Origin: a virus
Length of the DNA: 35,962 nucleotides
Reading direction: 5' to 3' (one strand)
Virus record (IMG/VR): IMGVR_UViG_3300043409_001660
Span: 1-35,962 of that record
The notes below the pieces were generated by a model. The model was not told the DNA's origin. It searched no databases and saw nothing but the letters and a program-made list of their open reading frames with translations. The position numbers were made by a program, and so were the translations under genes. Shown here one piece after another: positions 779-35,962 of the stretch (its first letter is position 1; each line of letters begins with the position of its first letter).

Positions 779-1307
779 CTGGGCTTGGCCAGGCGGGGTG
801 TGGCAAGGCTAGGCGAGGCTTGGCGGGGTGTGGCGAGGTGTGGCGAGGCAGGGCGAGGCAAGGGCTGCACTTGGTGATGCGATATTCATCGGTGCAGATT
901 TGCAAGGCCGTGCGGGGCGGGGCATGGCTTGGCGGGGTCAGGCGGGGTCTGGCAGGGCATGGGCCGCACATGGTGGTGAGAATCCATCGGTGCGGATTTG
1001 CGAGGCACGGCAAGGTCGGGTTTGGTGCGGTGCGGTATGGTACGGCGGGGTCTGGTTCGGCGAGGCAAGGCTTGGCCGGGTATGGCAAGGTTTGGCATGG
1101 CTCGGCGAGGTTTGGCAAGGGCCGCATGAGTGGCGAAATATTTACTTATGCGGATTTGCAAGGCACGGTACGGTCTGGTGGGGCCGGGTTGGGTCTGGCA
1201 AGGCGGGGCGGGGCAAGGTCTGGTCGGGCGAGGTCTGGCAAGGCATGGGCCGCATGAGTGGCGAAATATTCACTTATGCGGATTCGACAGTTGAGGATCA
1301 ACACATT
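779..1307 (+). repeat. G-rich pentameric repeat tract with four longer embedded repeats
   Basis: About 530 bp with no convincing gene. Most of it runs in 5-nt steps of the form NNGGC or NNGGT (units such as TTGGC, AAGGC, GAGGC, GGGGT). This gives strong G enrichment on the + strand. The tract is interrupted by four related elements of about 45 bp at 862-907, 961-1006, 1119-1164 and 1247-1290. Each begins GGGCYGCA and the first three end in CGGATTTGC-like sequence (one has CAGATTTGC), with a middle that varies. Overlapping open frames on both strands translate only into low-complexity Gly/Ala/Arg/Trp or Pro-rich strings, so I do not call genes here. The tract ends just before a strong Shine-Dalgarno for the 1322 gene. 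It is absent from allele B. Confidence 0.85.
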
Positions 1308-12210: not shown

Positions 12211-12789
12211 ATGCAATATTGCCAAGTCAGTCCAAGCGGTCAAATCTCCGGCCCGCAATGGCTCCCACAGTCATTTACGACTGTCAGCAATTTCAACGCG
12301 CTCGATGACGCATCACTGGCGACATATGGCTATTACCCATACAACCAGTCGCCCATTCCAAGCTACAACCCTGCCACGCAGAGGATTCAGCAATCATTCA
12401 CGTTTGATGGCACATCTGTATCAGATATATGGACAGTCGTTGATCTGACGGCAGAAGAACAAACTGCTTACGTGGTGGCTCGACTCACCGAAATCGGTAA
12501 CGGAATCGGCTCATTCTTGGATCAGCAGGTCTCTGTCAAGCAATACGACAGCATCCTGTCGGCTACAAGCTGGACGCTTTCCAACATCACGACCTATAAG
12601 TCAGAGGGTGAAGCAGCAACAGCCTATCGGGATAGTGTCTGGGGTCAGTTCTACGATATGGTTCAGGCTGTTCAGGCGGGTACTCAGGCAGTCCCCACAG
12701 TGGGCGAGTTCTTTGCAACAATCCCTCCTCTCTGGCCTGTAAACAACGGCAACGGAACATCCAACGGAACAGCCAACGGGCCAATCTGA
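12211..12789 (+). CDS. Tail-fibre-associated protein, unknown
   Basis: A 192-aa protein directly after the LamG gene. Its middle reads DIWTVVDLTAEEQTAYVVARLTEIGNGIGSFLDQQV, similar in style to short phage proteins that follow fibre genes, where a WxVxDLTxEE segment is common. The C-terminus is a low-complexity Asn/Gly/Thr tail. It may be a fibre chaperone or a small virion protein. The call rests on position and weak pattern only. Confidence 0.6.
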   Translation: MQYCQVSPSGQISGPQWLPQSFTTVSNFNALDDASLATYGYYPYNQSPIPSYNPATQRIQQSFTFDGTSVSDIWTVVDLTAEEQTAYVVARLTEIGNGIGSFLDQQVSVKQYDSILSATSWTLSNITTYKSEGEAATAYRDSVWGQFYDMVQAVQAGTQAVPTVGEFFATIPPLWPVNNGNGTSNGTANGPI

Positions 12790-31622: not shown

Positions 31623-31872
31623 TTCCAAGTTCCAAACAGGGGTTTATATACCCCCCTGTGTTGGAACTAACTAGGCTGGAACTAAGTTGGAACTAAGTTG
31701 GAACCAATTAAAAATAGATGTTTCGTGAAATGTGGAACCATTTTGGAAGTAGTTTCACCACGGTTTGGAACTAAGGGGTGTGAAACTAACTTTGGAACCA
31801 ACTTTATAAAGACACCTTTATGTTTTATCAAAGAAAGTTTTTTTCATAATTTTATGTTTTTGGTATTGAAGG
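31598..31872 (+). other. ori: Iteron-type replication origin
   Basis: The gap after the primase gene, including its last codons, holds many copies of TTGGAAC(T/C)AA. Four are inverted (GTTCCA at 31598, 31604, 31622, 31628). Forward copies lie at 31661, 31676, 31687, 31698, 31732, 31764 and 31791; those at 31676-31698 are spaced exactly 11 bp. A hairpin ACAGGGG/CCCCTGT (31636-31642 with 31653-31659) separates the two orientations. An AT-rich stretch at 31806-31872 could be the unwinding element. The initiator gene ends inside the array. No gene starts until 31951. Confidence 0.82.
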
Positions 31873-34253: not shown

Positions 34254-34430
34254 TGTCAGGGGTTAAATCCATCCTGCTGACAGACTCCTAGTTGGTGCAA
34301 TTCGAGTTTGTTCATGGGCAATCAGCCTGTCGAACTCACAAGGATACCAGGGGGAGTTGACCGACCATACTCGCGCCGGGAGTTTGACCACTCCCGGCAT
34401 CAAATCAAACGCATCACGGAGGTTACAGCC
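34254..34430 (+). promoter_or_regulatory. csrA leader with hairpin and several GGA motifs
   Basis: The stretch from 34048 to csrA has no convincing gene. Its second half contains GGA at 34341, within GGGGGAG (about 34351), within a perfect 9-bp hairpin GCCGGGAGT/ACTCCCGGC (34375-34383 with 34390-34398), and in the ribosome site CACGGAGG. CsrA binds GGA motifs, often in hairpins and over Shine-Dalgarno sites, so this leader may allow autoregulation. GGGAG-TTGACC-like sequence occurs twice. Confidence 0.5.
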
Positions 34431-34619
34431 ATGCTTGTGCTATCACGGAAGAAGAATGAAACCATCGTTGTCGGCAATGCACGGATCACCATCGTTGAGA
34501 TTCGTGGCGACAAGATCAAGGTCGGCATTGAGGCTCCGATGGAGGTCAATGTGGATCGGCTGGAAGTTTGGGAAGCGAAACAACGGAATCACATTTCAAC
34601 AGAAACGAGCAGCTCATGA
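34431..34619 (+). CDS. csrA: CsrA/RsmA-type translational regulator, allele B copy
   Basis: A 62-aa CsrA identical in its first 51 residues to the copy at position 9, with Leu4 and Arg43 kept. The C-terminal tail differs ([10 protein letters not shown]). CGGAGG at 34418-34423 is the ribosome site and is itself a CsrA-type GGA motif. It overlaps the next gene by ATGA, as the other copy does with a different gene. Confidence 0.93.
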   Translation: MLVLSRKKNETIVVGNARITIVEIRGDKIKVGIEAPMEVNVDRLEVWEAKQRNHISTETSSS

Positions 34620-35545
34620 GCCAGTATAATCGTATCGCAAATACTATCGAAAGTTCTAGCAAGCCAGAATCTTCGACAATTGCAAATAAGATAGTAATTA
34701 CACCGCTGATGGCAAAGGCATGGATTACAGGCAGTAAAGATTTCCGGAACCGAACTTTAAACCATGCTTTGGTTAAAAGTTATTCCGAAACCATGAAGAG
34801 CGGACTTTGGAAATATAATGGTGAGCCAATCATTCTCGACAAACAGGGCGATGTCATAAATGGTCAGCATCGTCTTCATGCTGTTGTATTATCTGGGGTA
34901 AGTATCCAATCTCTTGTTGTCTATGGTGTGGACAGAACAACGTTTGACACTATGGACAAGGGGAGAAGAAGGTCAAACTCTGATGTACTGCAACTTGCAG
35001 GGTATAAGAATACTTATGGCTTATCAGCAACAGCGTCTGCTGTCTATCACTACATTTTTGCGGGAGACTTCAGCGCCGTTTCAAGCAGCCGTAAAACCAA
35101 TGTGTCTGGTGTGATTATAAAATTTCTTGAAGAGTACCCTGATATGGTAAGTTCTCAAAAATTTATACATCTAAATGGACAGCGTGTCGAAGGGTTGTCG
35201 CCTCCAGGTATAATTGGCGCAATCCATTTCCTTTTTGGCTACGTAAATGAAAAAAAACGCGACAGATTTTTTGATGAATTTATTAACAATCAGGCATCTC
35301 CCGGAAGTCCAGTCTATGCTTTAATACAAGCAAATCGGTCAAAACAAACAGCTCTTGCGATGAAGTCTTCTATTGATCTAAGAACTGCTTTGTGGATTAA
35401 GGCATGGAACCTCTTTAGTTCAGGGCTTTCTATAAGCCAATTGAAATGGTCAAAAGAACATCATGCTTTCCCAGATATTACAGGGCTTAATCGAGAGGCT
35501 CTTAAATTCTCCCTAAGAGCAAGATTGGATCGACCAACATCATGA
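34616..35545 (+). CDS. ParB-like nuclease-domain protein (allele B cassette)
   Basis: A 309-aa protein starting at ATG 34616 within the csrA stop. The N-terminal half matches the ParB/Sulfiredoxin-like family of phages: [53 protein letters not shown] with the GQHRL box at about 86-90, then [27 protein letters not shown]. The C-terminal half is helical. The GQHR-type box is the nucleotide or DNA-binding part of ParB-like proteins. The DNA is clearly richer in A+T than flanking genes, suggesting separate acquisition. The stop overlaps thyX. Confidence 0.8.
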
Positions 35546-35962
35546 ACATCATCAACGCTCCATCCGTCTACCTGGTCGGCAAACAAGAACTCAACAGCCT
35601 TCATTGTGCCGAGTTCTTGGAAGCCCACGGAGTCGAACACTGGAACACCGACACTGACAACGCTGGCGAGCAACTGGTCGAGATTGCTGGCCGCTTGTGC
35701 TACATGAGCTTTGCCAAACCTCGACCAGGCGGAAACAAGGCTTATATCGACCACATCTTGGAAGTTGGCCACGGCTCAGTTCTGGAACATGCTGTTTACT
35801 CGATGATCTTTACAGGGGTCTCACGCTCGCTCACGCACGAGCTGGTCAGGCATCGTGCTGGAATGAGTTACTCGCAGTTGAGTCAACGGTATGTGGACGA
35901 AGTCGTGTTTGTGCGACCACCTGGTATCAAGCCTGACAGCGGTGCTGAACTGGTTTGGACAA
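35542..35962 (+). CDS. thyX: ThyX, allele B copy, cut by the window edge
   Basis: The first 140 codons of a second thyX. It starts [15 protein letters not shown] and differs from the 1763 copy over the first 55 residues, then becomes nearly the same. From 35836 the DNA is identical to 2057 onward, including the [15 protein letters not shown] motif. The frame would continue at 2184 if the window is circular, giving a full-length ThyX. Confidence 0.9.

Follow-up and report, generated by a model that had tools for sequence, protein, structure and literature searches.

A one-strand GGYNN repeat tract in a viral contig is very likely the guide-RNA array of a type II-like VIPR system

A long G-rich tract with a five-nucleotide period lies between two genes near the start of a viral contig, and the question that it raises is whether it serves as DNA, as a control site on its own mRNA, as coding sequence or as a source of separate RNAs. 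The window analyzed here is the whole 35,962-nt stretch of IMG/VR record IMGVR_UViG_3300043409_001660. Between positions 782 and 1286 of its + strand are four blocks of GGYNN pentamers with a hairpin of about 40 nt behind each; counted back from the hairpins, the blocks contain 16, 11 (one irregular), 23 and 17 units. The tract begins directly after the stop codon of ORF 188-778, and the ribosome-binding site (RBS) of ORF 1322-1759 comes after it.

A system with this kind of repeat has been described in a 2026 preprint under the name VIPR, for Viral Interference Programmable Repeat (PMC13142463). In that account, VIPR is proposed to be older than CRISPR, Vipr is a RAMP protein, and the guide RNAs (vrRNAs) are built from 9-16 YNNGG repeats and end in a structured 3' tail, the NN dinucleotides recognizing double-stranded DNA with one base skipped between them. 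The complex represses transcription, most of the natural targets predicted for it are competing satellites or prophages, and phages seem to use VIPR to switch off the genes of rival phages. Expression, the RNP and the target rule are reported there for SUSP1, and a tail pseudoknot for the SUSP1 clade. Given a GGYNN tract next to a protein that matches SUSP1 Vipr and is predicted to share the RAMP fold, the tract is very likely an array of VIPR guide RNAs; the system would be type II-like, with the operon order csrA-vipr-[four vrRNAs]-vap. The features of the locus are as follows.

9-191, + strand: csrA, CsrA-family regulator (Pfam CsrA, E = 3e-18), upstream gene of the operon
188-778, + strand: vipr, 196 aa, predicted RAMP protein (PDB 36pp match; PHROG 4652; RAMP fold)
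782-861, + strand: putative vrRNA1 guide, 16 GGYNN units
862-903, + strand: putative vrRNA1 3' tail hairpin (fold z = -2.9; covariation in 39 distinct tails)
906-960, + strand: putative vrRNA2 guide, 11 units, one irregular (TGCGG)
961-1001, + strand: putative vrRNA2 3' tail hairpin (folding and covariation)
1004-1118, + strand: putative vrRNA3 guide, 23 units
1119-1159, + strand: putative vrRNA3 3' tail hairpin (fold z = -3.9; covariation)
1162-1246, + strand: putative vrRNA4 guide, 17 units
1247-1286, + strand: putative vrRNA4 terminal 3' tail hairpin, GGGCCGCATG class (folding and covariation)
1322-1759, + strand: vap, predicted Vap1-family accessory protein, 145 aa (GTG start; RBS AGGAGG near 1311)
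34610-35545: phrog_5931 gene, function unknown, in the far-end copy of the csrA-thyX region

The original prediction, made from the sequence alone, had described a G-rich tract with a 5-nt period on one strand, carrying four related elements at 862, 961, 1119 and 1247, and both points are borne out. Runs of six GGYNN steps match the window 45 times, always on the + strand and always between 782 and 1244, against 0.00 expected from dinucleotide shuffles; neither the reverse strand nor the pattern read backwards gives a match. The starts given for the four elements are exact, and each element folds as a hairpin, better than shuffled sequence (z = -2.1 to -3.9). The tract was also said to be confined to one of two alleles, and the far-end copy of the region indeed lacks it. 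Positions 1-164 recur at 34423-34586 (99%) and 1895-2183 at 35674-35962 (90%), and the DNA between these repeats differs, with the VIPR locus at the start of the contig and the phrog_5931 gene at its end. The two ends hold the same csrA-thyX region with different contents, which suggests that assembly has joined two strains and that the VIPR cassette can be swapped for other contents between csrA and thyX. An assembly artefact had been named as a way in which the tract itself might prove false; this is not the case, since the same layout recurs in 10 other contigs. Short tandem repeats elsewhere in the window, at 12750-12779 (12-bp CAACGGAACAGC) and 31669-31704 (11-bp AACTAAGTTGG), are unrelated to the array.

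The protein encoded just upstream of the tract belongs to PHROG 4652, whose function is unannotated, and a Pfam search with it gave no match. Against the PDB it has a single match, entry 36pp, "SUSP1 Vipr protein" (E = 1.9e-28, or 1.1e-44 when searched as a profile). Its AlphaFold2 model (pLDDT 96.7) finds Csm3/Cas7-type RAMP subunits of CRISPR complexes by Foldseek (E = 3.7e-6), so that, as modeled, the window Vipr folds as a Csm3/Cas7-like CRISPR RAMP. Searches of 60 Vipr proteins with Pfam and NCBIfam returned nothing convincing, the best being a Cmr6 RAMP model for one member (E = 0.0047), and PADLOC made no call for vipr, vap or csrA. When 133 Vipr proteins are placed in a tree, the window and SUSP1 share a clade of 49 rows (support 98/98), 42 of which have a vap1-family gene. 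Homologs of ORF 1322-1759 follow vipr in relatives both close and distant. BLASTP alone gives no link between this ORF and SUSP1 vap1, but profile searching iterated from SUSP1 vap1 reaches it; a structure model of Vap has no convincing neighbor in the PDB. A DNA-binding role for Vap is taken from PMC13142463. On the basis of the grouping with SUSP1 and the vap1-family neighbor, the window system is assigned as type II-like. The third gene, csrA, has a stop codon that overlaps the vipr start (ATGA, 188-191), and it lies directly upstream of vipr in 11/11 close strains. Few of the other VIPR loci looked at have it (L018, L021, L076), and a functional link between csrA and VIPR is no more than a possibility.

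Additional evidence for the association of the tract with vipr came from a scan of IMG/VR by DNA pattern alone, using ten GGYNN units, which returned at least 120 DNA stretches. Counting the window and the matches listed, 87 of 121 tract-bearing records encode a homolog of ORF 188-778, invariably on the tract strand and mostly within a few hundred nucleotides of the tract. The remaining 34 tract-bearing stretches among the matches listed have no Vipr gene in their DNA; several are short or end near the tract, so some may be truncated contigs. One Vipr-less stretch looks different, with 50 perfect units near a 10-nt repeat, GGTYCGGCCA (L104, 5739-5988, numbered on the reverse complement). In the converse test, where Vipr homologs were found by protein, 22 of 23 viral loci and 18 of 23 cellular ones had a tract close by on the same strand, and none of these 46 had one on the opposite strand; away from the tracts near vipr, the rest of these loci contained just two GGYNN runs. 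Loci differ in whether the tract precedes vipr, follows it or flanks it on both sides. Vipr genes with same-strand tracts also occur in records labeled archaeal (the MAGs L293 and L298), Bacteroidales and Elusimicrobia (L286, L294), a wide host spread. The GGYNN pattern by itself is a simple, annotation-free detector of VIPR arrays.

The identification of the tract as VIPR is near certain, and what the locus does is inferred by homology to SUSP1 VIPR, from transcription and RNP formation through DNA recognition and repression to a role between phages. Transcription of the + strand would yield four vrRNAs, each with a GGYNN-repeat guide and a hairpin tail. Vipr, assumed to bind as one subunit per pentamer, would coat the guide and keep the GGY steps unpaired, leaving the NN pairs to read double-stranded DNA as NNxNNxNNx, with a 1-nt skip. 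A complex settled on a gene of a rival phage, satellite or prophage would block its transcription, and Vap1 may assist this repression.

The division of labor within each vrRNA was examined in the window and ten close relatives (L245-L254), which together hold 62 vrRNAs with 39 distinct tails. GGY is present in 909 of 935 units and all 16 NN dinucleotides are represented; where units of homologous guides have changed, the NN is altered in 15 of 17. The 12-pair tail hairpin is paired in 95.3% of cells, and 8 of its 12 pairs have changed on both sides. None of 500 shuffles reached the covariation score, and slid controls lowered the paired fraction to 23-43%. By analogy with the described system, GGY would be the scaffold, the NN dinucleotides the guide and the hairpin the 3' tail. 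The last pentamer before the hairpin probably belongs to the tail rather than to the guide, because its NN is AA or AT in 60 of 62 vrRNAs. The terminal tail of the array starts with GGGCCGCATG in 11/11 strains and most internal tails start with GGGCCGCAC; an invariant GGA occurs once per vrRNA tail, at the foot of the stem.

The same strains reveal how the arrays change. The Vipr proteins of the ten relatives are 90-91% identical to that of the window, and the arrays of these close strains contain 3-10 vrRNAs with mostly different guides, some as long as 25 units. Certain guides are common to two strains at other positions or with other tails, as for the fourth guide of L252 and the sixth of L253, the seventh of L253 and the second of L254, and the ninth of L249 and the third of L251. 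The first guide of L249 is chimeric, its 5' part being that of the first guide of L248 and its 3' part that of the second guide of L252 and the fifth of L253. In the window, an unbroken run of seven NN units toward the 3' end of guide 3 also occurs in the eighth guide of L249, so this 23-unit guide is possibly a fusion of two; among simulated random guide pairs, 0 of 200,000 reached 7 of 9 units. We infer that guide modules are exchanged by recombination in the tails and tracts, and the shared and chimeric guides indicate a turnover similar to that of CRISPR arrays. We found nothing on array turnover in the main text of PMC13142463. A further proposal is that the arrays are a heritable, actively renewed memory, with new guides captured or built and then shuffled between co-circulating strains. 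This would amount to a CRISPR-like adaptive archive within phage genomes without Cas1. We consider it rather improbable: turnover, sharing and chimerism of guides are observed in the data, and the 11-strain series gave no sign that guides had been acquired from a target. What this natural series of 11 close phages adds is a set of arrays in which guides have been gained, lost, relocated and recombined, which makes the origin and spread of VIPR guides directly testable.

Under the 1-nt-skip rule, the searches turned up no target. Within the window, self-targets at skips of 0-3 were not above shuffles. Scans of IMG/VR with 8-11-unit NNx patterns from a few window guides, exact matches only, gave none or chance-level numbers. 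The best candidate matched ten units of guide 3 exactly and lay where a gene begins in a group of related phage contigs; it was rejected, since 0.1-0.5 such matches by chance are estimated for a collection of this size. The 84,980 genomes scanned with 11 units of one shared guide gave 0 matches. In sibling phage genomes, targets at skips of 0-2 were at shuffle level; a skip-3 signal proved to be the arrays themselves, unmasked on reversed records, and an apparent enrichment at skip 1 was set aside, as skip-1 patterns had themselves been used to fetch many of the loci concerned. Because the collection scans covered few guides and exact matches only, this null result is weak evidence either way. 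The points against the VIPR reading are that no target was found, that there are guides longer than the 9-16 units reported and that no hammerhead is present. Rfam searches of positions 700-1400 found no hammerhead up to E = 5, with chance lncRNA matches only, and a scan of 16 other arrays at the gathering threshold found no hammerhead and one int-alpA RNA, unrelated.

Of the readings without trans-acting guides, the one that survives best makes the tract a cis-acting leader, a binding site on its own mRNA that would let Vipr or CsrA control how the gene after it is translated. The tract does lie between two same-strand genes, just upstream of an RBS, in an operon that includes csrA. However, its position on either or both sides of vipr in other loci does not fit such a role, nor does the variation from 3 to 10 vrRNAs, with guides shared as modules, in close strains whose genes are conserved. 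The GGA core of CsrA is excluded by GGY, and the SUSP1 tracts are discrete RNAs that co-purify with Vipr (PMC13142463). A cis-acting leader is therefore very unlikely. Less probable still, to the point of being scarcely credible, is a role as DNA without any RNA function, in which the tract would recombine or form G-quadruplexes so that the cassette can be swapped. GG every 5 nt would be expected to permit two-tetrad quadruplexes, the two contig ends carry different cassettes and guides are shuffled between strains; against this stand the compensatory pair changes in the hairpins, the placement of the tract on the vipr strand without exception and the report in PMC13142463 that homologous tracts are expressed guide RNAs. 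Equally far-fetched is a low-complexity protein, for although open frames of 145 and 179 aa span the tract, the 5-nt unit moves the codon phase at each step. Between strains, moreover, vipr and vap keep their frames, whereas the arrays vary in units and guides and their hairpins show compensatory pairs.

The tract is thus best read as a VIPR array, and this selects among the four roles originally offered for it. Structured RNA is partly right, as an array of small RNAs with covarying tails, and so is a protein-binding array, in the form of the Vipr binding predicted by homology. Such arrays do recombine, but this looks like a consequence and not an evident purpose. A G-quadruplex is unneeded to explain the pattern.

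CsrA-sequestering RNAs of the CsrB/RsmZ type also combine repeated G-rich motifs with hairpins, and the core recognized by CsrA is GGA. The likeness is increased by the csrA gene that adjoins the window array. Doubt about a CsrA sponge had been voiced from the outset, and rightly for the tract, because GGY excludes GGA: in place of many GGA cores, the repeats have GGC or GGT and never GGA, and the tracts go with vipr throughout, csrA being a neighbor in this subgroup only.

CRISPR-Cas systems of class 1 (type III, Csm3/Cas7) are similar to the window system in their RAMP fold, in a guide array with structured units between the guides and in turnover from strain to strain. One difference is that CRISPR spacers are contiguous, whereas the code of the window guides consists of NN pairs set apart by GGY steps. 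Neither Cas1/Cas2 nor a multi-subunit effector was found beside the array, where the neighbors are csrA, vipr, vap and thyX and their best matches are not cas families. With GGY/NN units in place of spacers and no cas genes adjoining, the locus was rejected as a member of CRISPR-Cas.

The closest parallel is the type II VIPR of the Escherichia phage SUSP1 (PDB 36pp), which like the window system is phage-borne and has a RAMP-type Vipr, GGY/NN guides with structured 3' tails, several vrRNAs and a vap1-family gene. In SUSP1, one vrRNA lies upstream and three downstream of both genes, whereas the window array is between vipr and vap; the window tails differ in sequence, csrA is upstream and sister strains carry arrays of up to 10 vrRNAs. 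Two of the four window guides (23 and 17 units) exceed the reported 9-16 units, and the other two (16 and 11) fit. One kind of VIPR array has hammerheads interspersed between vrRNAs; none was found in the window by Rfam at 700-1400. VIPR as a kind was already described in 2026, and what is new here is another member, an independent example reached from raw sequence.
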